A DNA stretch of 64,000 nt from NCBI RefSeq assembly GCF_009765975.1, contig NZ_LMUJ01000085.1:3454-67453 (forward strand), in the 5' to 3' direction. Position 1 is the stretch's first letter, and every line of letters begins with the position of its first letter. Under the pieces are notes generated by a model. The model had not been told where the DNA came from, searched no databases, and saw nothing but the letters and a program-made list of their open reading frames with translations. The translations under genes were made by a program, and so were the position numbers. The stretch is from Acidisphaera sp. S103 (lineage in GTDB: Bacteria > Pseudomonadota > Alphaproteobacteria > Acetobacterales > Acetobacteraceae). Of this stretch, positions 34,679-49,985 are shown piece by piece.

Positions 34679-36094
34679 TCAGGCCAAAGCCATATGGCGC
34701 ACATCCGTCAGCCGCCCGGTGACCGCGGCGGCGGCGACCATGGCCGGACTCATGATGTGGGTCATGGCGGCGCGTCCCTGGCGACCCTCGAAATTGCGGT
34801 TGGTTGTGGAAGCGCATCGCTGGCCGGGTCCGACAATCTCGCCATTGGACCCGTTGCAACTGGAGCAACCGGAATCCCGCCACTCCAGGCCGGCGTCGAG
34901 AAAGATGCGGTGCAACCCTTCTTGTTCCGCCTGCCGCTTGATCTCGCTCGAACCGGCGGAAACCATCCCGGGGACACTGGCCTTTTTGCCCTTCAGCACG
35001 CCAGCCGCGGCCCGAAGGTCTTCGATCCGGCTGTTGGTGCAGGACCCGACGAAAATTCGGTCAACCCGCACCTCGGACAGAGGCATCGCCGGCGTGATCT
35101 GCATGTATTCGAGTGCGCGCGCAACATGCCGCCGGCGTTCGGGATCGGAGAAACTGTCTGGATCCGGTACCTTGCCGTCGATCGGCGAGCAATCCTCCGG
35201 GCTCGTGCCCCAGGTGACCATCGGCGCAAGCGCGGCGGCGTCAAGCGTCAGTTCGCGATCGAATTGTGCGCTGTCGCCGGTCGGCAGCGTGCGCCAATAG
35301 CCAATCGCCCGATCCCAATACGCACCCTTCGGCGCCCGCTCGCAATTTGCCAGATGTTGGAAAGTCGTATCATCCGGCCCGATCATACCAATCCGGGCGC
35401 CACCCTCGATCGACATATTGCAGATTGTCATGCGGCTCGCCATCGCCATCGCGCGAATGGTCGAGCCGGCATATTCGACGGCGTAGCCTGTGCCCCCGCC
35501 GATCCCGATCTCTCGGATGATGGAGAGAATGACGTCCTTGGCCGTCACCATCCGCGCCAATGTACCGTCGATGCCGATACGCATCGTCTTGGGGCGCTTC
35601 ATCCAGACCGTTTGCGTCGCGACGACGTGGCGAAGCTGATTGGATCCGCCGATCGGAATAGCGCAGGCGCCCATCGCGCCATGCGTCGCGGTGTGGGAAT
35701 CGTTGCAGGTGATCAGCATGCCCGGTTGGGAAATGCCAAGCTCCGGCCCGATCACATGCGCGATGCCCTGTCGCCTATGATGCATATGAATATGCGGCAA
35801 GCCGAACTCGGCGGCGTTGTTGGCCATCATCGAGACGACCTTGCGGATCTCGGGATTGGCGATGCCCTCGATGCCGGCCTGGCGGTTGATGGTGGGCAGG
35901 TAGTGGTCGGTCACCGCAAGGTGCTGTTCCGGCCGAACGCTCTTGCGCCCTTCAAGCCGCAGTTGGTCGAATGCCAGGAACGACTGGCCCTCGTTGATGT
36001 AGTTGAAATCGACGTAAAGCAGGTCTTCGCCCTGGGAGGAGGCGATCACATGATCGTCCCAGACGTTTTCGAACAACGTGCGTGCGGCCGGCAT
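34679..36094 (-). CDS. LeuC-like large subunit of an isopropylmalate isomerase-family hydro-lyase
   Basis: Large subunit (471 aa) of the hydro-lyase. The iron-sulfur ligands are seen in VGSCTNSR and SGCSSC, and CNDSHTATHGAMGA and RCASTTNRNFEGRQGR are conserved. Beside the second cysteine pair the usual PGCSMCLAMN of LeuC reads SGCSSCNGSN, and the downstream stretch is NGEIVGPGQ. These changes lie near the substrate pocket, so the enzyme probably acts on a relative of 3-isopropylmalate such as a methylated or citraconate-type acid. Divergent from the LysR gene. Confidence 0.87.
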   Translation of the reverse strand: MPAARTLFENVWDDHVIASSQGEDLLYVDFNYINEGQSFLAFDQLRLEGRKSVRPEQHLAVTDHYLPTINRQAGIEGIANPEIRKVVSMMANNAAEFGLPHIHMHHRRQGIAHVIGPELGISQPGMLITCNDSHTATHGAMGACAIPIGGSNQLRHVVATQTVWMKRPKTMRIGIDGTLARMVTAKDVILSIIREIGIGGGTGYAVEYAGSTIRAMAMASRMTICNMSIEGGARIGMIGPDDTTFQHLANCERAPKGAYWDRAIGYWRTLPTGDSAQFDRELTLDAAALAPMVTWGTSPEDCSPIDGKVPDPDSFSDPERRRHVARALEYMQITPAMPLSEVRVDRIFVGSCTNSRIEDLRAAAGVLKGKKASVPGMVSAGSSEIKRQAEQEGLHRIFLDAGLEWRDSGCSSCNGSNGEIVGPGQRCASTTNRNFEGRQGRAAMTHIMSPAMVAAAAVTGRLTDVRHMALA

Positions 36095-36212
36095 CTCAGT
36101 GGCTCCCCTCGTTGCCCCGCGCCGAATCGTCCGGCTCGATTTGCCTCAGCGATGGCGCCTGTTTTGAGGCCATGCCAGTCTTCCTCCCGTGATGCCGATT
36201 GCGGCTCAATGT

Positions 36213-36233
36213 AACTTATACTAACTATAAGTT
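36213..36233. promoter_or_regulatory. LysR-type operator palindrome
   Basis: AACTTATA-CTAAC-TATAAGTT, arms exactly complementary around a 5-bp centre, in the divergent gap between the LeuC-like and LysR genes. Size, symmetry and place fit a LysR-type box controlling both genes. Confidence 0.72.
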
Positions 36234-36285
36234 CAACTGGCGGCCGCGGCAAGCACTTCCGGGGAAACTTTTTTGGTCAAAGCGA

Positions 36286-37332
36286 ATGAAGGCAAAAGAC
36301 GAAGATATTCAAACCTTTGACAAGGTGGCCGTCGAACAGTTGACCCGCCTCTCGATCGGCACCGGGCTGACAACGCGTTCGCTTGAGGTGTTCGTGGCCG
36401 TAGCGCGAGCCGGCACGATGAGTGCCGCCGCGGAGCAGCTGGGAATGACGCAACCCGCTGTTTCGCAACTCATCAGCCAGATGGAGACCGCGCTCAATAT
36501 ACAACTCTTCGATCGCTCGAAGCGTCCGTTGATCTTGACGCTGCACGGCGCGGCGCTTGTCCAGCCGGCACGGGCCATCGTCAGTGGCATCGAGCGCTTC
36601 GGCCAGGCACTTCAATCGGGCCTCGGTGGCCAGATGCCCTTGCTGCGGATCGGCATGCTCAACAGTTTTGCCGAAACCATCGGGCCAAGTGTTTTCGCCG
36701 AACTGCGGCGGAATGCCGCCCAGCTTACAATCGACTCCGGCTTCTCCGCCACGCGCATGCGGGCGGTCGCCGACCGGGAACTGGATTTCGTGATCACCAC
36801 GGATGAATCGCCACTCGTTCCGGGGGTGATGATGGCGCCAATCCTGACCGAACCGTTTCTGATCGTCGCGCCAGGCAGCTACGCGGGCGATCCGCGGGCC
36901 ATCAAGCCGCTCAGCGAAACGCTCGACCTGATCCGCTTCGGGCGGGACCCGTTCATGAATTCGCGGTTCGACCAGACGCTCAAGGCCTGGGGTATATCGC
37001 CGACACATCGTTACCATTTGGATACCCATGCCGCGGTGCTGGAGATGGTGGCGTCCGGCGTCGGCTGGACGATCCTGCCGCCACTCGCCGTCTATCGCGC
37101 CATCACCCGCGGTGACCGGATTCGTGTCGCGCCATACCCTGAGCAATCGATGAAGCGCGTCATGATGGTGATCGCGCGAGAGGGCGAGGGGACGCAAATC
37201 GTGCGCACCATTCACGCCGCCGCCACGCAGGCACTGAAGACCAAGGTCTTGCCCGTGCTTAAGCAGCATTTGCCGGAAATCGCGGAGATGATGACCCTAC
37301 ACGACTACGATCATCCGCCGTCTGATCGGTGA
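36286..37332 (+). CDS. LysR-family transcriptional regulator
   Basis: DNA-binding regulator of about 348 aa. The N-terminal winged helix reads TRSLEVFVAVARAGTMSAAAEQLGMTQPAVSQLISQMETAL. An extra N-terminal stretch of about 25 residues precedes it. The effector domain follows from about residue 110. The start at 36286 is the last ATG before the conserved region; earlier in-frame starts reach 36199 and would overlap the operator. It probably controls the divergent leuCD-like/MFS operon in response to its acid substrate. Confidence 0.87.
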   Translation: MKAKDEDIQTFDKVAVEQLTRLSIGTGLTTRSLEVFVAVARAGTMSAAAEQLGMTQPAVSQLISQMETALNIQLFDRSKRPLILTLHGAALVQPARAIVSGIERFGQALQSGLGGQMPLLRIGMLNSFAETIGPSVFAELRRNAAQLTIDSGFSATRMRAVADRELDFVITTDESPLVPGVMMAPILTEPFLIVAPGSYAGDPRAIKPLSETLDLIRFGRDPFMNSRFDQTLKAWGISPTHRYHLDTHAAVLEMVASGVGWTILPPLAVYRAITRGDRIRVAPYPEQSMKRVMMVIAREGEGTQIVRTIHAAATQALKTKVLPVLKQHLPEIAEMMTLHDYDHPPSDR

Positions 37333-37517: not shown

Positions 37518-38336
37518 TCAACGGGTGGCCAGGTTGTGCAGCGCGCGTTCCGCGTCGGCGCGCAAGGCCGGATCGTGTGTCAGGTCGCGTGCTCGTTCGA
37601 GCCAGGTGCGTGCTTCCGCCGTATCGCCCTGGCCGGAAGCACTTTGCCCAGCCCGCAGATACAGATCCGCCGCCTGGGGTGCAGACGGCGTGAATTGCGC
37701 CGACAGCGCCAGCGCCCGAGCCATTCCGCGGTAATCCAATTGGTCTCGCCGCAGATCGGCGGCATGCAGCGCCAGGACTGGATCGTGCGACAGCCGCGCT
37801 TTCAGTTCCGCCGTATCCGCCGGGTCGGCGGCGGCGGTCATCGACGCCACGGCTTTTTCCAGGCCTGGCGTATCGCCGCGCTGGTCGGCGATAAGGCCGA
37901 TCAGGAACCATGCGGCATTGACCAGCGCGGAATCCTTGTCACCGGTCAGGCCCGTGGCGATGCGATCCGCTTCCGCCAGGTTTCCCAGCCGGAACTGCGC
38001 CGTCGCCGAAATCAGGTCGAAGCCGGCATCGGCGATGCCGCGCCGGGCCAGTTCGGTGCGCAGTTCCGCCGCCGTCTGCAGGGCATCCGCCGGCTTGCCG
38101 GCCCGCAACTCGGCGGTGGCGAGGTTGAAGCCGGCATCCGCGATCGCCGCGGCATCGTCCCGCACGCGCGCCCGGACCAACGCGGCACGATATTGCTCAG
38201 CGGCCTGATCCGGCTGTTCCAACTGGATGGCAATGTCACCCGCATGCCTGAGGCGAGAGAGCGTCGGGTCGATGGGGACGCCAGACGGTGCCGTGGAACA
38301 GCCCGCCAGCAGCAATGCGATCAGAACGCGCCTCAT
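37518..38336 (-). CDS. Lipoprotein with TPR-like repeats, Mla-type operon
   Basis: A 272-aa lipoprotein. MRRVLIALLLAGCSTA is a short signal peptide with a lipobox cysteine at residue 13. The mature protein is alpha-helical with TPR-like units (AAEQYRAALVRARVRDD; AADLYLRAGQSASGQGDTAEARTWLERARDL). Its ATG overlaps the MCE-gene stop by 4 bp. As last gene of the operon it may anchor the MCE protein at the outer membrane or act as a periplasmic scaffold. No known Mla component has this build, as far as I can tell. Confidence 0.78.
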   Translation of the reverse strand: MRRVLIALLLAGCSTAPSGVPIDPTLSRLRHAGDIAIQLEQPDQAAEQYRAALVRARVRDDAAAIADAGFNLATAELRAGKPADALQTAAELRTELARRGIADAGFDLISATAQFRLGNLAEADRIATGLTGDKDSALVNAAWFLIGLIADQRGDTPGLEKAVASMTAAADPADTAELKARLSHDPVLALHAADLRRDQLDYRGMARALALSAQFTPSAPQAADLYLRAGQSASGQGDTAEARTWLERARDLTHDPALRADAERALHNLATR

Positions 38337-39283
38337 GGTGTGACGTTGGCCGGCGACAGGCGGCTTGCCTCCGGCGCGGCAGAACCGGACAGCGGCCAAG
38401 TGTGACGCAACTGGTTCAGTGTCTTCTCCAGTTCCGCCATACTCTGTTGCGACTGGGTCAGCAGCGCGGGCAGGTTGGCCGTGCTGTCGGCGACGTTTCG
38501 GCTGATTGCCGGCAGCCGTGGGGTCGCGCTCGCCAGGTCGTGGGTCGCTTTCTGGACCGAGGCCAACGCGGCGTCCGCTTTGTGCAGCAAGGCCGGCACG
38601 CCATCGGGTGCCGCCGTCGATGCCACCAGCCCCCGAACATCGGCCAGCGTGGTGTTGAGCTGATCGGTGGCTGTTTTCAGATTGGTCAGCAACTGGGTCA
38701 ATTGGTTGACCATCTCCTCGTTCTTCACCAGACGGCCGATATCGCCGTGGCCCTGGGAAATGCCCTCCACGGTGTCCGCCAGGGCATGCATGGCTCGGCC
38801 GGCGTCGTCGAGAACCGGAAAGATCTTCGCCTTCACCTGGTCCACCATAGCGCCAATATTTTCGGTGGCGTCGCGTTCGGTTACCGCGTCGATCACCGCG
38901 AAATGCCAATCGAGCGGCGCGCCGGTGCCGCGCGAGATGTCGAGATACGCCGCGCCGGCAACGCCGAACTGCTTCTTCACCACCGCCTTGCTGTCGCGCC
39001 GGATGAAAGCCTCCGCCTGCTCGTCCAGTTGCGCCTCGGCGTACATCCGGTTCGGGTCGACCACGACACGGCGCACCGTGCCGACGCGCGTGCCCAACAA
39101 CTGGATGTCGGCACCGGCCGACAGGCCCTGACTGCCCGACTCCGGCAAGATCACGCGCAGGTCCACGGTGGGACGGAACCAGTCGCTCAGCAGCCCCGCA
39201 TGCAGCGCGGCGGCGACGAACAGGACGATGCTCAGCACCACCAGCAGGCCGACCCATTCGTCCGTATTGCGCAGGATTTTCAT
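38333..39283 (-). CDS. mlaD: MlaD/MCE-domain protein
   Basis: A 316-aa inner-membrane-anchored periplasmic protein. One N-terminal helix (about residues 9-31) is followed by a single MCE domain (VDLRVILPESGSQGLSAGADIQLLGTRVGTVRRVVVDP). A long helical, coiled-coil-prone tail (about 180-300) follows, with many Ala, Leu and Gln. MCE proteins form hexameric rings that carry lipids across the periplasm. The ATG at 39283 has GAGGTG upstream. It overlaps the lipoprotein gene by 4 bp. Confidence 0.88.
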   Translation of the reverse strand: MKILRNTDEWVGLLVVLSIVLFVAAALHAGLLSDWFRPTVDLRVILPESGSQGLSAGADIQLLGTRVGTVRRVVVDPNRMYAEAQLDEQAEAFIRRDSKAVVKKQFGVAGAAYLDISRGTGAPLDWHFAVIDAVTERDATENIGAMVDQVKAKIFPVLDDAGRAMHALADTVEGISQGHGDIGRLVKNEEMVNQLTQLLTNLKTATDQLNTTLADVRGLVASTAAPDGVPALLHKADAALASVQKATHDLASATPRLPAISRNVADSTANLPALLTQSQQSMAELEKTLNQLRHTWPLSGSAAPEASRLSPANVTP

Positions 39284-39293
39284 GCCGGGCACC

Positions 39294-39992
39294 TCACGCG
39301 ACACGCGCCGGCAGCCGGACCGGCATCAACGCGGCATCGGTCAGTCGCAATCGATGGGTCGGACGGACCGCTCGGTTGCGCAGCGCCGGCCCAGCATTGG
39401 CCAGCCATATCACGGCTGCGCCCTGGCCGCGTGCTTCGGTGCCGACATCCAGCAGGGCGGACAGCATGTCCTCATGCTGGGCGGCCAAAGGCAGTTCCAG
39501 GATCGCGAGGCGCGGCCGGCCGAGGAAGGCACGCACACAGGCGGCTCGGCGAAGGTCGGGCGGCGACAACAGCCTGGCGGGTCCCACCGGCAACCCGGGC
39601 AGGCCGAAACGCAGCGCGAGAACCGCCGCTTCCTCCCGCAACGCCGCCTCGGGAATGCGGGTGTGGTGCAGCCGCGCCAGCAGCACCCGCGATGCCACGT
39701 CACGGGTTTCCGGACGCAGCGGCTGGTGGAACAGCCGGCCGATATGACCGCGCAGCGCGTCGGCATGGGCGTCCGGCACGGTCTGCCAATCCCGACCCAG
39801 GAAGCGCACGCACCCGCTCGTCAGTGGGATGAGGCCGGTGCAAAGGTTGGCGAAACTGGCGCCTCGCCTTGGGCCGGGGACCTCGATCAGGGCGAAATCG
39901 CCCTCCGACAGGACCAGGTCGATCGGGGCATAGGGCAGGTACTCACCGACGCCGCAGGCGGCTTCGATCGCAAGGGTGGGTGGCGCGGTCAT
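39294..39992 (-). CDS. Degenerate ABC ATPase-like protein in Mla-type operon
   Basis: A 232-aa protein in the position of MlaF. The ABC fold can be aligned: beta-strand FALIEVPGPRRGASFANLCTGL sits at the Walker A position, GRLFHQP at the Q-loop, SPPDLRRAACVRAFLGRP at the signature and LAILELP at Walker B, with VIWLANAG at the H-loop. All catalytic residues are missing: no Walker A lysine, no SGG, no Walker B Asp-Glu, no His. It overlaps mlaE by 4 bp and lies 10 bp before the MCE gene. It is probably a non-hydrolysing structural partner of the permease. Confidence 0.78.
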   Translation of the reverse strand: MTAPPTLAIEAACGVGEYLPYAPIDLVLSEGDFALIEVPGPRRGASFANLCTGLIPLTSGCVRFLGRDWQTVPDAHADALRGHIGRLFHQPLRPETRDVASRVLLARLHHTRIPEAALREEAAVLALRFGLPGLPVGPARLLSPPDLRRAACVRAFLGRPRLAILELPLAAQHEDMLSALLDVGTEARGQGAAVIWLANAGPALRNRAVRPTHRLRLTDAALMPVRLPARVA

Positions 39993-40768
39993 AGCAGCGC
40001 GCTCAGCAGCAGCGTGACCGTCAGGATGCCGGTGACGCCGCGGGTGAAGCCGCGGGGCAGCAGGCTGGCGGGCGTATCGGTCTCGCTGGCGGCGAGGCCG
40101 GTCACGCAGCAGGACAGGGCGACGATCAGGCCGATCAACAGCAGCTTGGCCGGAAAGACGGCGAAATCGCCGATGCTCATCGCGCGCAGCATCGTGTCGA
40201 GGAAGCCGAAGATCGACGTGTTCACCACGCCGGCAAAACTGCCGGTGACGAAGCCGCTGAGCAGGCTGATCAGAAGGAACACCACGCCGAGGGTGAAGCC
40301 GGCGACCGCGAAGGCCGCGGCGCGCGGCAGCAGTAGGTACTGGAAAATATCGATCCCTTCGGCGCGCAGAATTTCGACCTCGCCTTCCGCCTTCAGCGCG
40401 CCGAGTTCGGCCACTGTTGCCGTGCCACCGCGCCCGAGCAAGATGATGCCGACCAGCAGCGGGGTGATCTCGCGAACCAGCACGATGACCAGGATGCGGC
40501 CGATCTGTTCCTCCTGTCCGGCGGTGCGCAACCAGTAGATCGCCTCGAACACCAGGCCCAGGCCGACGATGATCGCGGTCACTGCAATGGTACCCAGGGA
40601 GCCGCCGATCACGCTGGTCAGCGTGGTTCGGAAGCTGGCGCGCACCGTGCGCCGCCAGGTGGACGGCCATGTCCCCTCCCGCACTACGCCCCACAGCAGG
40701 GCCATGAGTTGGAGTATGTAAGCGGATCGCGAGCGCGTCGCGGCGCCGACGGTGCCGAGCGCGCTCAT
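39989..40768 (-). CDS. mlaE: MlaE-family (YrbE) ABC lipid permease
   Basis: Inner-membrane permease of 259 aa. The MlaE hallmark is present: REITPLLVGIILLGRGGTATVAELGALKAEGEVEILRAEGID, followed by LLLPRAAAFAVAGFTLGVVFLL and about five hydrophobic helices. It overlaps the receptor gene upstream and the pseudo-ATPase gene downstream by 4 bp each (ATGA). In known systems it pairs with MlaF for ATP-driven phospholipid transport; here the adjacent partner lacks ATPase motifs. Confidence 0.93.
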   Translation of the reverse strand: MSALGTVGAATRSRSAYILQLMALLWGVVREGTWPSTWRRTVRASFRTTLTSVIGGSLGTIAVTAIIVGLGLVFEAIYWLRTAGQEEQIGRILVIVLVREITPLLVGIILLGRGGTATVAELGALKAEGEVEILRAEGIDIFQYLLLPRAAAFAVAGFTLGVVFLLISLLSGFVTGSFAGVVNTSIFGFLDTMLRAMSIGDFAVFPAKLLLIGLIVALSCCVTGLAASETDTPASLLPRGFTRGVTGILTVTLLLSALL

Positions 40769-43062
40769 GCCCGCCCCGCCAGCACGTAGCTGCGTGCCGC
40801 GCCGGTGTGCGGTCGATGGAAAAGCCCGCGCGGACGGAACAGGAAATTCTGCCGCAGCAGCAGATAGGCCTGTTCGCTGGTCTGGATGGCCTCGGTTGGG
40901 GCGGATGAGGCGAGGGCGCCGGCGCCTTGCATGACCTCGCCCCAGATGTTGAAGAGGCCGGGCGCCGACCCCAACCGGGCGCCGAAGATGATCCCGACGT
41001 CGAGGCCCATGCTGAAGGCGGCCAGGCCGTCGGTGCCCTCGAACAGCACGATGCAGCGCTCGCGGAGGGCGATGGCGACGTCGGCAAGCCGGGTGGCGGC
41101 TTCGGCCAGATCTGATCCTGTCCTGATTCCGTAGCCGGTGGCGGCAACGATCGTCGTGCCCATCATTTTGACATAGGGGATGCCGTGGGCGGCGGTGATC
41201 TCCTGCGCCGCGCAGGCAGCCTGGTGCGTCAGGGATTCCTCGGTGTCGGGCAGGCGCAGCACCAGGACCACTGCCCGCGTGTGGGTTTCATCGATGGTGC
41301 CGGAGGCTGCCAGGATTGGGTCGAATCCGTGCTCATCCAGCGATGGTTCGGTCTCGGACAACATGCCCGTCGGGATAAGGGGAGGCGCGTCGGTCTCTGC
41401 TCCGGACAGCGCGGCAGGTGTGCCGAGGCCGACCAAGGTGGCGCAGGCACGGGCGAAATCGATCCCGGCGAGATCCCGCCGCGGGTCCTCCAGCGTCACC
41501 ATGCCGATCGGCTGTCCAGCCTTCGTCACCGGAACGGCGAACAGCGCGACACTGCCGATCTGGGTCATGATCGAGCCATGGAACGCGGCGGTACGGCGGT
41601 CCCGCCTTGCATCGGGCGTGTCGATCGTCTCGCCCGCGGCCAGCGCCTCGATCAGCGCCGGCAGTTCCTGCCGCGACAACTCCAACCCGGTGAGACGCGC
41701 GCCCGTCGCGGGCTCGAAGCTGTCGTCGCAATGCAACGCCTGGCGGCCCTCGGACAAGCGCCATATCCCAGCACGCCTGGCGCCGGTCGCCTCGGCCAGG
41801 GTTTCGGCCAATGCCGCGGGCGGACGGCCTTCGGCATCGAACATCCCTGCCTCCTCGGCCAGCCGCGCGAAGGCTGCGCTCTGTTGCCGTAGCACTGTCG
41901 AGCGTTCCGCCACCGTCCGCGCGGCTCGGTCTGCGCGCAGTCCCTGGCGCACCACCAGGGCCGCCAAACCGGCGGCCAAGGCGACCACGATCAGGGAGAG
42001 CAGCGCCGTCCGGCGCGAGTTGACGGCGACGAAGCCGCTGAATTCGGCTTCCGGCACGGTGATGAAAAGCAGCCAGCCCTGGGTGTTGTTCGCGAGCGGC
42101 GTGACGATCGAAATCATGCGCTCGCCGTTCACGCCGATGATGCGGTTGCCCGGCCCCTGCGTGCGGAAATGGTCCCAGCTCGCGGCGAGCCGGGGGTCGC
42201 CGACGGCATCGACCCGGGCTGGCATCAGCGTGCCGTCCTGCTTCGTCAGGATATGCGCGGGATCAGGGCCGGCGACCATCCGCCCGTCCCGTGTCGCGAT
42301 ATAGGCTCGGCCCGTGCGGCCAATGGAGAGGCCACCCAGAAAGCGGGAGATGGCGTCGAGCCTGATATCCACACCGACGACGTCGGGGTCTGGGTCGGGC
42401 CCATGCACCGCCGCGGTGATGCCCGGTGCCTGTTCGGAGAAGAAAACGTAGACGTCGCTCCAGAACACCTCGTTGATCGCTCGGGCGCCGATGAACCAGG
42501 AACGGGTACGGGCGTCGTAATTGTCCTTGGGGTCTGCGTGCTGCGAGATGATTTTTCCACTCGCGTCGCTTGTGGTCCATTCGACACTGCGTTTGCCGGC
42601 CGACAACAGGATGCGCTTCGTGTCGATGGCATTCGGCGGGCCGTTCGATGCGCGGGTAACGAGCATGAAGTTGCCCTGGGCGTCGGCGAACAGGACATTC
42701 TCGATCTGTGGCGTCTCGGCTAGTATCGAAGCGGAAAAGGTCCTCGCTTCGTTGGCGCGGGACGTGGCGCCCTCACGGCCAAGCATGCTGTGAGCCAGCA
42801 ACGCCGCATGGGCCGCCGGCTCGAGATAGGCCGAGACCTGCAGGGCGATGCGTTCTTGCGTGCTACGCAGCAAAGTCCCCGACAGGTCGAGGACGCCGGC
42901 GCGGTTGGCGCTGTCGGCATAGATGGTGATGCCGAGCAGGAAGCCGATGATCAGGCCGACACCGCCGATCGGTAGGCCGATGCGCAGCAAAGTCTGGCGC
43001 CGGCGCTGCCGTTCAGCCAGGGGATCGACCTCGACATCAACGATGTCCGTACGATCGGGCAA
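40765..43062 (-). CDS. Membrane receptor: Cache - GAF - degenerate class III cyclase domain
   Basis: A 765-aa inner-membrane protein. Helix 1 is at about 27-49. A periplasmic double-Cache-like domain (85-335) contains RSWFIGARA, and helix 2 is at 352-373. A GAF-like domain spans about 410-545. From 595 to 750 the sequence follows a class III nucleotide cyclase: VKMMGTTIVAATG, FSMGLDVGIIFGARLG, LFNIWGEVMQ, IQTSEQAYLLL, FLFRPRG. Both metal-binding Asp positions and the Asn-Arg pair are replaced, so it should not make cAMP. It is the first gene of the Mla-type operon and overlaps mlaE, suggesting ligand-gated control of transport. Confidence 0.82.
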   Translation of the reverse strand: MPDRTDIVDVEVDPLAERQRRRQTLLRIGLPIGGVGLIIGFLLGITIYADSANRAGVLDLSGTLLRSTQERIALQVSAYLEPAAHAALLAHSMLGREGATSRANEARTFSASILAETPQIENVLFADAQGNFMLVTRASNGPPNAIDTKRILLSAGKRSVEWTTSDASGKIISQHADPKDNYDARTRSWFIGARAINEVFWSDVYVFFSEQAPGITAAVHGPDPDPDVVGVDIRLDAISRFLGGLSIGRTGRAYIATRDGRMVAGPDPAHILTKQDGTLMPARVDAVGDPRLAASWDHFRTQGPGNRIIGVNGERMISIVTPLANNTQGWLLFITVPEAEFSGFVAVNSRRTALLSLIVVALAAGLAALVVRQGLRADRAARTVAERSTVLRQQSAAFARLAEEAGMFDAEGRPPAALAETLAEATGARRAGIWRLSEGRQALHCDDSFEPATGARLTGLELSRQELPALIEALAAGETIDTPDARRDRRTAAFHGSIMTQIGSVALFAVPVTKAGQPIGMVTLEDPRRDLAGIDFARACATLVGLGTPAALSGAETDAPPLIPTGMLSETEPSLDEHGFDPILAASGTIDETHTRAVVLVLRLPDTEESLTHQAACAAQEITAAHGIPYVKMMGTTIVAATGYGIRTGSDLAEAATRLADVAIALRERCIVLFEGTDGLAAFSMGLDVGIIFGARLGSAPGLFNIWGEVMQGAGALASSAPTEAIQTSEQAYLLLRQNFLFRPRGLFHRPHTGAARSYVLAGRA

Positions 43063-43879: not shown

Positions 43880-44539
43880 ATGACCTTGAGCGACAACCCG
43901 ATCGGGGCTTCCTATCTCTACTTGCTGGAGCCCGAGATTCGCTTTCTGGAGGCGGCCGTCGAGCATCTGATTCCCACCGATGAGCTGAGCCCTGGGGCTC
44001 GCGATGCAGGCGTGGTGGTCTATATCGATCGGCAATTGGCCGGCACCTGGGGCGTCCACGGCCGCATGTATCGTGGCGGCCCGTGGATGGAGGGCACGCC
44101 GCAGCAGGGCTACCAATCGCGGTTCACGCCACAGGAAGTCTACCGCATCGCGATTCGCGAGATCGACCAGCACTGCAAAACCGCGTTCGGCCGGCCTTTC
44201 GCGCAGCTTGCAAGTGACGACCAATTGCGCCTGCTCGAGCAGTTGGAGAAGGACGAGATCGCGCTGCCTTCGCTGTCATCGAAATTCTTCTTCGATCTGC
44301 TATGGCGCAACACCGATGAGGGCTTCTTCGCCGACCCCCTATATGGCGGCAACCGCGATAAAGTGGGTTGGAAGCTGCTCGGATTCCCCGGACTGCCCTC
44401 CAGCGAATACCGCCGGCTGGTCACCAGCGACGAGCCGTATTACGCCGAACCCGTCAGCGTGCTCGACGTCCAGACCGGTCAGGTGCCGGTCGACGCGGAA
44501 GGCTTTCCGAAGCACGTGATCATCAAACGCGACAGGTAA
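43880..44539 (+). CDS. Gluconate 2-dehydrogenase subunit 3-family protein
   Basis: Small subunit (219 aa) of a membrane-associated flavoprotein dehydrogenase. Diagnostic are LEPEIRFLEAAVEHLIPTDELSPGARDAGVVVYIDRQLAG and FFDLLWRNTDEGFFADPLYGGNRDKVGWKLLGFPG. Normally this subunit has a Tat signal that exports the complex. Here the start at 43880 (GAGGAG upstream, in-frame TGA a few codons earlier) gives MTLSDNPIG with no leader. The GMC subunit follows 7 bp later. Export route is therefore unclear. Confidence 0.85.
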   Translation: MTLSDNPIGASYLYLLEPEIRFLEAAVEHLIPTDELSPGARDAGVVVYIDRQLAGTWGVHGRMYRGGPWMEGTPQQGYQSRFTPQEVYRIAIREIDQHCKTAFGRPFAQLASDDQLRLLEQLEKDEIALPSLSSKFFFDLLWRNTDEGFFADPLYGGNRDKVGWKLLGFPGLPSSEYRRLVTSDEPYYAEPVSVLDVQTGQVPVDAEGFPKHVIIKRDR

Positions 44540-44546
44540 AACTGAT

Positions 44547-46310
44547 ATGTCGAATACGAAACTGAAATCCGTCGACGTCGTCGTCGTGGGCAGCGGCGTC
44601 GTGGGCTCCATCATGTCGATGGAACTGGCCAGTGCCGGACTGAGCGTGGTGTGCCTGGAGCGCGGCAAGTCGTTCGATGTGAACACCGACTTTTATAAGC
44701 CCAACGTGTACGACGAACTGAAGTACGATCGCCACAGCGACATCTTCCAGAACCTGGCGCGCGACACCCTTACATTTCGTAACAACAACGCGCAGACGGC
44801 GCTGCCGATGCGCGAGATGGGCGCGTTCAAGCCGGGCGAGATGGTCGGTGGCACCGCGGCCCACTGGGGCGGCAATGCGCGCCGCTTTCTGCCGCATGAT
44901 TTCGAAATGCGTTCGCGCATCAAGGAACGATACGGCGCATCGTTCATTCCCGAGGACTGCAATTTGCAGGACTGGGGCGTCACCTGGGACGAGGTCGAAC
45001 CGTACTACGACCAGTTCGAGCATATCTTCGGCGTGGGCGGCAGAGCCGGCAACCTGAACGGCGAGATCCAGGACGGCGGCAATCCGCATGAAGGGCCGCG
45101 TTCGCGCGAGTATCCGAACCCGCCGACGCAGCCATCGCATGAAGGCCGGCTGTTCGCCGACGCGGTGAGTTCCCTGGGCTATGTGCCGTTCCAGGGGCCG
45201 ACCGCGGCGATGACGGCGGACTATCGCAATGCTTACCGCGTGCAGATGTTGGAATGCGCGCGCGGCGGCTTCTGCTCGAGCCATGTCTGCGCGCAAGGGG
45301 CGAAGGCCAATCCCCTCACCTCGGTGCATCCCGCGCTGATGCGGCAGCCGACGTTCGAGATGCGCCCGCTGTGCAACGTGCTGCGGGTCAACACCGATTC
45401 CACCGGCAAGAAAGCCACCGGGGTCACCTATATCGATGCGCGGGGCAACGAAGTCGAGCAGCCGGCCGACATCGTCATTCTGGGTGCGTATTGCTTCAGC
45501 AACACGCGTCTGCTGCTGTTGTCGGGCATCGGCACGCCCTATGACCCGCTGACCGGCAAAGGTGTTGTCGGCCGCAACTATTCCTACCAGCAAGGCGGGT
45601 CGGTGCATGTCTTCTTCGACGATCGGGAGTTCAATCCGTTCATCGGCGGCGGACAACTCAACACGTCGATCGACGAGCTCAATGGCGACGTGATCGACCG
45701 CGGGCCGCTGGGCTTCATCGGTGGCGCCTATGTCAACACCTCGGCGCGCGGTGCGGCGCCGATCAAGGGCAAGGTGGTGCCGCCCGGAACGCCGCGCTGG
45801 GGCGGCGAATGGAAGAAAGCCGTGGCGTACAACTACCGCCGCAACATGGCGATCACCAGTCACGGGACCTGCCTGAGCTATCGGCACAATTACCTCGATC
45901 TGGATCCGACCTACAAAGACGCTTACGGGCTGCCGCTGCTGCGCATGACGTTCGACTGGAACGAGAACGAACTGCGGATGATGAAGTGGATCGATGAGCG
46001 CTGCATGGAGATCGGCCGAGCGCTCAACGGTTCGAGGCTTGGCGGTAAGGGCAAGGGCACGCATTTCGGTCTCGTGGGGTATCAGAGCACCCACAACGTC
46101 GGCGGCGCCGTGATGGGCACTGATCCGTCGACCAGTGTTGTCAACAAATACCTGCAGTCGTGGGACGTTTCGAATCTGTTCGTGGTGGGCGGCAGCGCGT
46201 TCCCGCAGAACCCCGCGAACGGCCCCACTGAGACGATCGGCATGCTGGCTTGTTGGGCGGCCGATGCGATCAAAGAAAACTACATTGGAAAACCGGGCTC
46301 TTTGGTCTGA
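44547..46310 (+). CDS. GMC-family FAD dehydrogenase (gluconate 2-dehydrogenase large-subunit type)
   Basis: Flavoprotein of 587 aa that would oxidise a sugar, sugar acid or alcohol. The FAD-binding motif VVVGSGVVGSIMSMELASAG opens the protein, and EMVGGTAAHWGGNARRF contacts FAD. The active-site histidine lies in STHNVGGAVMG and the C-terminal cofactor motif in NPANGPTETIGMLACW. It forms a pair with the subunit-3-like gene. The usual third subunit, a membrane multiheme cytochrome c, is absent; the next gene is a convergent LysR regulator. The electron acceptor and substrate are unknown. Confidence 0.88.
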   Translation: MSNTKLKSVDVVVVGSGVVGSIMSMELASAGLSVVCLERGKSFDVNTDFYKPNVYDELKYDRHSDIFQNLARDTLTFRNNNAQTALPMREMGAFKPGEMVGGTAAHWGGNARRFLPHDFEMRSRIKERYGASFIPEDCNLQDWGVTWDEVEPYYDQFEHIFGVGGRAGNLNGEIQDGGNPHEGPRSREYPNPPTQPSHEGRLFADAVSSLGYVPFQGPTAAMTADYRNAYRVQMLECARGGFCSSHVCAQGAKANPLTSVHPALMRQPTFEMRPLCNVLRVNTDSTGKKATGVTYIDARGNEVEQPADIVILGAYCFSNTRLLLLSGIGTPYDPLTGKGVVGRNYSYQQGGSVHVFFDDREFNPFIGGGQLNTSIDELNGDVIDRGPLGFIGGAYVNTSARGAAPIKGKVVPPGTPRWGGEWKKAVAYNYRRNMAITSHGTCLSYRHNYLDLDPTYKDAYGLPLLRMTFDWNENELRMMKWIDERCMEIGRALNGSRLGGKGKGTHFGLVGYQSTHNVGGAVMGTDPSTSVVNKYLQSWDVSNLFVVGGSAFPQNPANGPTETIGMLACWAADAIKENYIGKPGSLV

Positions 46311-47281: not shown

Positions 47282-47436
47282 CCGAAGTGGTGGTCTACGA
47301 TCCCGAACGATGTCTGGGTCTCCCTGATGTGTCGGCTCGCGCCGGGAATTTTTGGCCGCGTTTCGCGGAAAATAAGTCGCTCGCGCTGGCGAAGCTTAGT
47401 GCTCATGTCTGTGTCCGGAAAGCGAGGAGGACCATC

Positions 47437-48687
47437 ATGCCGCACAACGCCACGCCGAACACCGTCGAGGTCAACGGGCGGACCTACGCCGCGCCAAAAC
47501 GACCCACCGTGGTGATTCTCGTCGACGGTTTCGATCCGGCTTACCTCGAACACGGCATCGCCAATGGTACACTGCCCACCATGAAGTCGTTCAAGGAAAA
47601 GGGCTTCATGGCCATTGCCGATTGCTCGATGCCGGCCACGACCAACACCAACAATACCTCGGTCGTAACCGGCGTGCCGCCTGCCGTGCATGGCATAAAC
47701 GGCAACTATTATCTCGACTCGGAAACAGGCGAGGAGGTCATGGTCACTGACGCCAGGCGGCTGCGGTGCGGCACGATCCTGGGCGCGCTGAGTCACGTGG
47801 GTGTGAAAACCGCCGTCGTGACCGCCAAGGACAAGCTGCTCAAGGTTCTGGCCTATGAAATGGACGGCATCAATTTCGCGGCGGAATATGCCGACAAGGC
47901 GACACTGAAGGAAAACGGCATCGAGAACGTCGAAAAGCTGGTTGGCCGGCCCACACCGGACCGCTATTCCGCCGATCTGTCACTGTTCGTCCTCGATGCA
48001 GGCGTGAAACTGTTGTCCACCCAACGTCCGGACCTCATGTACCTCTCGACCTCGGATTACGTGCAACACAAGCACGCGCCCGGGGAGCCGGAGGCGGACG
48101 CCTATCACCAGGCGGTGGACAAGATCGTCGCTTCGCTGATGGCCCTCGGTGCCACCGTGGCCATCACCGCCGACCACGGGATGAGCGATAAGTCCACCCC
48201 CGACGGCACGCCCAATGTCATCTATCTGGAGGACGAATTGAACGCTCGGTTCGGCGAAGGCGCCGTCCGGGTCATCTGCCCGATCGCGGACCCCTTCGTC
48301 CGCCATCACGGCGCCCTGGGTTCATTCGTTCGCGTCCATCTGCAAAAATCCGGTGACGTCCAGGCGATGATGGCGTTTGTTCGGACGCTGCCCGGCGTCG
48401 AACTGGTTCTCGACAAGGAGACGGTGTGCGAGCAATTCGAACTTCCGATCGACAGGGAAGGGGATTTCGCGGTCTTCGGCGATCGCCAGACCGTTGTCGG
48501 CGCACGTCGGCAGGATCACGATCTGAGTCAGCTCGCCGGACATCGGCTGCGCTCGCATGGCGGTCTCGGTGAGCAGCGCGTGCCCTTCCTGCTGTCGGCG
48601 CCGCTCGATCCTGGCTGGCAGGCGGCGCATCCGCGGCCGAGAAACTACGACATCTTCGACGCCGTGCTGAATGGAGTAGTTGCATGA
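47437..48687 (+). CDS. phnA: Phosphonoacetate hydrolase PhnA
   Basis: Zinc-dependent C-P hydrolase of the alkaline phosphatase superfamily (416 aa), cleaving phosphonoacetate to acetate and phosphate. Metal and active-site residues are in place: Asp in VILVDGFDP (about 30), the nucleophile Thr in PATTNTNNT (about 68), Lys in TAKDK (131 and 133), Asp and His in STSDYVQHKH (207, 211), ADHG (246-247) and a late His in RSHGG. GAGGAGG before the ATG at 47437 sets the start. Its ATGA overlap couples it to the next enzyme. Confidence 0.93.
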   Translation: MPHNATPNTVEVNGRTYAAPKRPTVVILVDGFDPAYLEHGIANGTLPTMKSFKEKGFMAIADCSMPATTNTNNTSVVTGVPPAVHGINGNYYLDSETGEEVMVTDARRLRCGTILGALSHVGVKTAVVTAKDKLLKVLAYEMDGINFAAEYADKATLKENGIENVEKLVGRPTPDRYSADLSLFVLDAGVKLLSTQRPDLMYLSTSDYVQHKHAPGEPEADAYHQAVDKIVASLMALGATVAITADHGMSDKSTPDGTPNVIYLEDELNARFGEGAVRVICPIADPFVRHHGALGSFVRVHLQKSGDVQAMMAFVRTLPGVELVLDKETVCEQFELPIDREGDFAVFGDRQTVVGARRQDHDLSQLAGHRLRSHGGLGEQRVPFLLSAPLDPGWQAAHPRPRNYDIFDAVLNGVVA

Positions 48688-49985
48688 AACGCCGTGCGAT
48701 CGTCGTTGTTTTGGATGGCCTGCGACGGGATATGGTGGGACCGGAGGCGACGCCGGAACTCCATCGGTTCGGCGCGGTGGCGACACGTTTCGCCGCCCAC
48801 CGTTCGGTGTTCCCGTCCGCCACCCGCGTGGTCTCCGCCTGCTTCGCGACCGGCACCTTGCCGGCGCAACACGGGTTGCAGGGCAATTCGGTGGCACTGA
48901 TGGAGGGGAGCACGCTGGTGCCGCACGATGTCGGCCGGCCGGACTTCATGGATCACTGGCGCGCGGTGCGTGGACATACCTTCGCAGTGCCCACCATGGC
49001 CGAACGCCTCGCACGTGCGGGGCTGGAGGCGATGGTGTTCAACAACGTCTCGCCGGGGGCGGCACGAGCGCACGATCCGGACGGTCATGGCTGGATCTTC
49101 AATCGCGCCTGCTCATTCGCACCAACCCTTCGCCGCCTGGGCGCGGGCGAGGATATCGCCGATGTCACCCTCGATACGAAGGGGGACCGCCTGCTGACCA
49201 CGTATTTCCTGGATCGCGCGCTGGCCGGCCACGAAGCCGCCCTTGGCGTACTCTGGTTCGGTGAGCCCGATCATAGCCAGCATGAGAACATCCTGGGATC
49301 GCCCGCCGCAATGGCCGCGATCGCCGGTGCCGATGCCTGCTTCGGCGCCGTCCGCCGCGCCGTCGACGCCAGGCGAGCGGCCGGACAGGAAGACATCCTG
49401 CTGATCGCCTGCTCCGATCATGGGCACCAAACCGTGGACGAGGTGATCGATATCGATGCCGCCTTCGTCGCGGCCGGGCTGAAGGCAGCGGGCGATCCAA
49501 GCCTGCTCGCCGTCTCGAACGGCACCTCGGCGTTGATCTACCTGCACCCTGATCGCAACGAAGATGCCGCCGCCGTGCTGGCCTTCCTGCGAAGTTGCTC
49601 CTGGGCCGGTTCGGTGCTGGAAGGGGATGCGCTCGCGGCGGTGGGGCAGGTGCCCGTGGATAGCCTGCTTTGCGCCATTGCCATGCGGAGCGACGATCGG
49701 CCGAACGAATTCGGTGTGCCAGGGATGAGTGCCGCGGCCAAACCCTTCGCGGGCAAGCCGGACCGGCTCGGCTGCGGTCAGCACGGCGGTCTTGGTGCCT
49801 GGGAGCAGATGCCTTTCCTGATGATCGAGGGTGATGGTTTCAGGCAGGCTGCCTTATCGGACGAACCCACTTCCGTGATTGACTTGGCCCCCACCATCCT
49901 CGGTCACCTGGGTATTTCAGCGGAAGGCTGTGAGGGACAACCCATGCAACAGCGGCGGGTAGTTACCGCTGGCCACCAGGGGTAA
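48684..49985 (+). CDS. Alkaline phosphatase-superfamily hydrolase (nucleotide pyrophosphatase/phosphodiesterase-like)
   Basis: A 433-aa member of the same superfamily as PhnA, with no signal peptide. The metal and nucleophile framework is VVVLDGLRRDM (Asp 11), FPSATRVV (Thr 47), GEPDHSQHE, ACSDHGHQ and CGQHGG. Coupled to phnA by ATGA overlap. It may hydrolyse another phosphonate or an organophosphate, for example an ester that yields phosphonoacetate. The precise substrate cannot be read from sequence. Confidence 0.82.
   Translation: MKRRAIVVVLDGLRRDMVGPEATPELHRFGAVATRFAAHRSVFPSATRVVSACFATGTLPAQHGLQGNSVALMEGSTLVPHDVGRPDFMDHWRAVRGHTFAVPTMAERLARAGLEAMVFNNVSPGAARAHDPDGHGWIFNRACSFAPTLRRLGAGEDIADVTLDTKGDRLLTTYFLDRALAGHEAALGVLWFGEPDHSQHENILGSPAAMAAIAGADACFGAVRRAVDARRAAGQEDILLIACSDHGHQTVDEVIDIDAAFVAAGLKAAGDPSLLAVSNGTSALIYLHPDRNEDAAAVLAFLRSCSWAGSVLEGDALAAVGQVPVDSLLCAIAMRSDDRPNEFGVPGMSAAAKPFAGKPDRLGCGQHGGLGAWEQMPFLMIEGDGFRQAALSDEPTSVIDLAPTILGHLGISAEGCEGQPMQQRRVVTAGHQG

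Follow-up and report, generated by a model that had tools for sequence, protein, structure and literature searches.

A five-gene operon combining an MlaE-family permease, an ATPase-like protein without catalytic motifs and a Cache-GAF receptor with a cyclase-like domain in Acidisphaera sp. S103 and its relatives

The window analysed here, a 64,000-nt stretch of the 8.4-Mb genome of Acidisphaera sp. S103, contains at 37518-43062 five minus-strand genes, each overlapping or almost touching the next. In order, they encode a membrane receptor, an MlaE-family permease, a protein resembling the ATPase of an ATP-binding cassette (ABC) transporter, a protein with a single mammalian cell entry (MCE) domain and a tetratricopeptide repeat (TPR) lipoprotein, and relatives from the Acetobacteraceae were fetched for comparison. 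Two of the five proteins carry enzyme folds that have lost their catalytic residues across the family. A first-pass annotation had described five tightly packed genes joined by ATGA overlaps or 10-bp gaps, and both its coordinates and its junctions were confirmed. Three junctions are 4-bp overlaps of the ATGA type, while the fourth, between the ATPase-like and MCE genes, is an 11-bp overlap if the GTG start is used and a 10-bp gap if the ATG start is used. The operon features are the following, the ATPase-like protein being named pseudo-nucleotide-binding domain (pseudo-NBD) for the reasons given below.

43080-43071, minus strand: Shine-Dalgarno-like AAAGGAGGAG of the receptor gene, 8 bases 5' of the TTG start, read from the sequence
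43062-40765, minus strand: receptor gene, TTG start, 765 aa
42019..42900, minus strand: Cache sensor part of the receptor, residues 55-348 (PF02743; Z ~21.7 to Cache domains of amino-acid chemoreceptors)
41428..41811, minus strand: GAF domain of the receptor, residues 418-545 (PF01590, E 1.3e-8)
40768..41301, minus strand: class III cyclase-like domain of the receptor, residues ~588-765 (PF00211 above cut-off; catalytic residues lost)
40768-39989, minus strand: MlaE-family permease gene, 259 aa (PF02405, E 2.9e-36)
40349..40408, minus strand: MlaE segment corresponding to the coupling helix (residues 121-140), which departs from the form T(E/D)QIDAL (alignments)
39992-39294, minus strand: ATPase-like gene (pseudo-NBD), 232 aa (sequence, alignment, AlphaFold model and fold search)
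39852..39881, minus strand: position of the lost Walker A loop, VPGPRRGASF (sequence and alignment)
39486..39569, minus strand: region equivalent to signature and Walker B, LSPPDLRRAACVRAFLGRP and LAILELPL, without LSGG and without DE
39304 (GTG) or 39283 (ATG) to 38333, minus strand: MCE gene (PF02470, E 3e-11)
38336-37518, minus strand: TPR lipoprotein gene, 272 aa (TPR Pfam models; lipobox LLAGC read from the sequence)

Curated Pfam cut-offs were exceeded by dCache_1, GAF, MlaE, MlaD and TPR among the operon proteins. The Pfam search returned no STAS protein, MlaB, MlaC or MlaA among the five genes, in agreement with the earlier statement that a STAS protein and MlaC are absent from the operon.

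The ATPase-like protein shows no Pfam match and weak matches to ABC models of NCBIfam. Its AlphaFold model (as all models here, a single chain) has a predicted local distance difference test score of 92.8, and fold search gave Z values of 23.2 over 219 residues to LolD and of 21.7 to MlaF. Among 115 distinct homologues, Walker A in the form GxxxxGK[ST], the LSGG signature and a DE Walker B were each found in none, the Walker B position being mostly occupied by ED, EN or EE, and the H-loop His is likewise absent in the alignments. The claim that the operon lacks a working ATPase is thus borne out by the loss of Walker A, and this degeneracy is, on the homologues aligned, a property of the whole family. 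The protein is a maintained pseudo-NBD, with an ABC fold that is complete as predicted. Its conserved residues gather in ALRGRIGR, HHTR, FGLPGLP and DLxRAACVRAFLGxP, around the Q-loop and the helical subdomain. In ABC transporters, the coupling helix is received by the Q-loop and helical subdomain of the NBD, and the conserved patches of the pseudo-NBD would probably make contact with that helix.

In one small-genome genus, an in-frame TGA is located inside the profile match of the pseudo-NBD (locus L071 and genomes G118, G170, G207, G209, G220, G228 and G239). The L071 pseudo-NBD terminates early, which fits a shortened C terminus.

As deduced from its AlphaFold model and fold search, the receptor begins with a membrane helix and a double Cache domain; a second membrane helix, continuous with a long helix, leads to a GAF domain and a class III cyclase-like fold. 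This topology would place the Cache part in the periplasm. A Cache-GAF receptor at the head of an Mla/MCE operon had indeed been proposed, and both domains are supported by Pfam, but the C-terminal cyclase domain (PF00211) had been overlooked. This domain aligns with an adenylyl cyclase domain with a Z value of 22.7 over 176 residues, and the receptor-family profile matches the mycobacterial adenylate cyclase Rv1625c/Cya with E ~1e-33 and, with E ~1e-21, the Cache domain of PctA, an amino-acid chemoreceptor.

The catalytic residues of class III cyclases (a pair of metal-binding Asp, the purine-binding Lys and Asp, and the transition-state Asn and Arg) are nonetheless mostly gone, 98 of 102 receptor cyclase domains retaining one at most of the five that were counted. 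The first metal Asp was omitted from the count because MAFFT and HMMER disagree on its position, HMMER aligning an Arg and MAFFT a conserved D/E a few residues further on. With Cya as reference, the second metal Asp is retained in 4 of the 102 receptors, the transition-state Asn in 8, the Arg in 6 and the purine Lys in 35, whereas the purine Asp is replaced by Asn in 99; the second metal Asp, Asn and Arg are jointly retained in none of them. On the contrary, the structural Trp (101/102) and Gly (102/102) are kept. Judging from these residues, the output domain of the receptor has the fold of a class III cyclase but is catalytically dead, and in the models both this fold and that of the pseudo-NBD are predicted to be intact. 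More ancestral cyclase residues remain in some Desulfobacterota receptors of the alignment, consistent with a stepwise loss from an active cyclase. No second PF00211 domain was found for use as an active comparison, the receptor being the only PF00211 match in its own genome.

The permease is readily assigned to the MlaE family (PF02405, 125 bits versus a cut-off of 22.5), although it falls below the stricter TIGR00056 cut-off (71 versus 212 bits). Residues R99, E100, D201 and K208 are almost invariant in the family alignment, and the positions R97, E98, D198 and K205 of Escherichia coli MlaE are kept. In E. coli these residues make up a network of buried charges at the lipid pocket (PMC7790496). 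Since alanine mutants of R97, E98 and K205 have no growth defect in that organism (PMC7790496), the kept charges speak for structure more than for function. The coupling-helix segment mostly reads GGxxRxL, versus VTDQIDAL in the canonical MlaE of the same genome, a divergence that fits a changed NBD partner. Regarding the MCE protein, it displays an N-terminal membrane helix, one MCE domain above the PF02470 cut-off and a long helical tail, and is thus of the single-MCE, MlaD type, while scoring below the TIGR04430 cut-off for MlaD equivalogs.

Homologues of the pseudo-NBD (E 1.4e-14 or better) were detected in ~61 of 200 genomes sampled from the family, the next matches (1e-11) resembling ordinary ABC proteins. 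When 40 same-family loci were fetched from these homologues, the order receptor, MlaE, pseudo-NBD and MCE was present in all of them, and the TPR gene in 35, a contig end cutting 2 of the others and the gene being undetected in 3; most neighbouring genes overlap by 4 bp or are separated by a short gap. When named genomes were scanned with an alignment of ten sequences, 127 relatives were obtained, of which 80 were kept, and all five genes lie in order at 76 of these. Because the order recurs in both sets of loci, the arrangement is not due to chance, and the search for it in other genomes that the first-pass annotation had proposed shows it to reach beyond the Alphaproteobacteria and not to be restricted to one genome, which that annotation had named as one of two possible refutations.

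Carriers in the named-genome scan include, within the Acetobacteraceae, Acetobacter, Gluconobacter, Komagataeibacter, Asaia, Gluconacetobacter, Acidomonas, Elioraea and Roseomonas-like genera. Outside the family, they include metagenome-assembled genomes (MAGs) of Desulfobacterales and other Deltaproteobacteria (L137, L155, L157, L161, L168, L170 and L172), one of Chromatiaceae (L183) and further ones of Proteobacteria (L141, L156 and L197). Such occurrences are rare, with 2 of ~380 genomes in the class sample and 1 of ~390 in the phylum sample. The closest relative in the tree is G723, a genome of another family whose pseudo-NBD is 79% identical to that of the window, and this closeness across families, together with the patchy occurrence, suggests that the operon may have spread horizontally. 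For twelve species pairs, dN/dS values were 0.03-0.29 for the pseudo-NBD, 0.03-0.24 for the receptor, 0.01-0.27 for MlaE and 0.01-0.25 for the MCE protein, indicating purifying selection on all four.

Other Mla/MCE parts exist in the same genome. The canonical ones are scattered over three contigs (C104, C98 and C52) and form no operon, a second MCE operon lies on contig C58, and a PqiB-like protein with three MCE domains is encoded on C110. Their positions are as follows.

C104, L074 7689-8474: canonical MlaE, beside alr
C98, L202 2779-3729: MlaF
C52, L203 1905-2762: MlaD-like protein
C58, L075 4566-8069: second MCE operon, encoding a STAS-MlaE fusion together with an MCE protein, a lipoprotein and an NBD that is intact

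The motifs of both NBDs are intact, reading GGSGCGKST, LSGGM, FFDEP and SHE in the C58 protein and GGSGSGKSV, LSGGM, FFDEP and THD in the C98 MlaF.

With the Mla system (MlaFEDB plus MlaC and MlaA), the operon shares the joint encoding of an MlaE-family permease, an ABC-fold cytosolic subunit and a single-MCE protein. A minimal MlaEFD is known from Veillonella (PMC10665443). Nonetheless, a competent ATPase encoded with the permease, as expected of Mla, is missing here, MlaB, MlaC and MlaA are absent, and the operon is led by a Cache-GAF-pseudo-cyclase receptor and closed by a TPR lipoprotein. As its NBD has lost the catalytic motifs and MlaB and MlaC are not encoded in it, the operon is not an Mla system by membership. 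PqiABC and LetAB resemble it in being MCE systems without an ATPase, and Pqi in having a lipoprotein partner, but the operon has MlaE in place of a PqiA/LetA-type membrane protein, one MCE domain instead of three or seven, and the TPR lipoprotein in place of PqiC. Similarly, the Mpc system of Brucella (PMC12436622) is a simplified alphaproteobacterial MCE operon with an MlaE-type permease and an MCE protein. Identity with Mpc was rejected, since that system includes an ATPase of the MlaF kind and has its MlaE fused to STAS; it resembles the C58 system instead. Finally, class III cyclase receptors of the Rv1625c/Cya type are also membrane receptors with a C-terminal cyclase fold, whereas the receptor family described here has lost the catalytic residues and is encoded in an MlaE operon. 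Thus, the operon would be expected to work like an Mla/MCE system, while belonging by membership to neither Mla, Pqi nor Let.

The reading that we favour, to which we assign about an even chance of being correct, is that of an MCE conduit which has no ATPase of its own and is gated by the receptor, via two paired pseudo-enzymes that touch each other. The MlaE dimer would be the lipid gate in the inner membrane, the MCE protein with its long helical tail would form the periplasmic tunnel, and the TPR lipoprotein would anchor or terminate the conduit at the outer membrane. The pseudo-NBD would occupy the place of MlaF on the coupling helix of MlaE, as a conformational lever that makes no usual use of ATP. 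A ligand bound at the periplasmic Cache domain, or a cytosolic one at the GAF domain, would shift the cyclase-like domain, which would then act by contact on the pseudo-NBD, in a role like that of MlaB towards MlaF, MlaE thereby opening or closing and lipids travelling downhill. Two precedents are consistent with this proposal: (i) the PqiA and LetA systems have no ATPase, and MCE tunnels need no dedicated one (PMC12436622), and (ii) MlaB binding to MlaF is required for MlaF to join its complex, an example of control exerted via the NBD (PMC7367683). Lipid transport, its substrate, direction and gating, the contacts between the operon products and their localisation are what we infer, as is the signal-gated character put forward in the first-pass annotation. 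The stronger claim, that the operon defines a distinct MCE class in which the receptor allosterically switches lipid flow via MlaE through the pair of dead cyclase and dead ABC ATPase, the complex hydrolysing no ATP, is advanced more tentatively, at somewhat less than even probability.

Several observations weigh against a receptor-gated, ATPase-less conduit. Genomes G267 and G293 (loci L113 and L114) encode MlaE, pseudo-NBD, MCE and TPR proteins with no receptor anywhere in the genome, so the receptor is dispensable there. Two uncultured Rhodopila MAGs (L118 and L119) have a receptor, MlaE and pseudo-NBD close to those of the window and neither MCE nor TPR gene at the locus. Both kinds of incomplete members are nested among complete ones in the tree, and therefore look like losses. 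MlaE and the pseudo-NBD are the constant core of the operon, with the caution that the scans were themselves queried with the pseudo-NBD. Moreover, the two intact MlaF-like ATPases on C58 and C98, and a canonical MlaE in all 26 genomes checked, would allow energy to be supplied in trans. The canonical MlaF might then pair with the operon MlaE, by replacing the pseudo-NBD or in a mixed dimer, the result being an ordinary ATP-driven transporter with a regulatory pseudo-subunit. In mycobacteria, several Mce transporters are served by one MceG, which also speaks for sharing of this kind. However, the operon always has its own NBD-fold partner, and the coupling helix of its MlaE departs from the form that accompanies canonical MlaF. 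Furthermore, an ABC ATP site requires Walker A from one subunit together with the signature from its partner and, since the pseudo-NBD has neither, a mixed dimer would hold no complete site. A complete swap of MlaF for the pseudo-NBD would be possible. Altogether, supply in trans appears rather unlikely, and, for the functional MlaF encoded elsewhere that the first-pass annotation had named as its own counter-evidence, there are two intact MlaF-like candidates, by either of which the ATPase-like subunit might be replaced.

The two Rhodopila MAGs, together with the fact that both enzymatic domains are dead, could also be explained by a sensory complex without transport, MlaE and the pseudo-NBD forming a membrane scaffold that reports the state of lipids or envelope to or from the receptor. 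We consider this improbable, given that almost every member has the MCE and TPR proteins, on which purifying selection acts, MlaE retains the charged cluster at its lipid pocket, and the sole output domain of the receptor is the dead cyclase fold. Even less credit is given to a cryptic use of nucleotide, the pseudo-NBD or the cyclase-like domain binding it in an unusual manner as a ligand sensor or slow enzyme: the intact folds, the purine Lys and second metal Asp that some receptors keep, and the conserved D/E close to the first metal position would favour it, but Walker A, signature and Walker B are missing in all 115 pseudo-NBDs and the second Asp, Asn and Arg never occur together in a receptor. 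As for the idea that an Mla operon and its neighbour are decaying here, which the vanished catalytic motifs might evoke, the same gene order is found across phyla and motif loss extends to every member; the dN/dS values of 0.03-0.29 rule decay out, its probability being negligible, and it was rejected.

Literature searches that paired MCE proteins or MlaE with cyclases, Cache domains, pseudo-ATPases or acetic acid bacteria returned no description of the operon in open-access papers, which were what the searches covered; an earlier report in subscription papers or preprints may exist. The system bears on two open questions, namely how MCE transporters are regulated and what drives lipids across the envelope in ATPase-less MCE systems. 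As a natural case in which the coupling role of an NBD stands apart from the hydrolysis of ATP, it is also a candidate for a system where a ligand directly controls lipid flow in the envelope. It occurs in vinegar bacteria, plus scattered sulfate reducers, and its recurrence in many acetic acid bacteria that serve to make vinegar, cellulose and sorbose makes it testable in the tractable Gluconobacter and Komagataeibacter.

No conserved flanking genes that would add a function were detected beyond local synteny among acetic acid bacteria. Adjoining the operon in the opposite orientation, at 43880-46310 (plus strand), is an ordinary pair of genes for a sugar or alcohol dehydrogenase (a GMC oxidoreductase and subunit 3 of gluconate 2-dehydrogenase), followed at 47287-49985 (plus strand) by a tandem pair of type I phosphodiesterase / nucleotide pyrophosphatase genes. 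Just past the 3' end of the operon, at 34679-37332, lie an aconitase-family dehydratase gene and a divergent LysR regulator.

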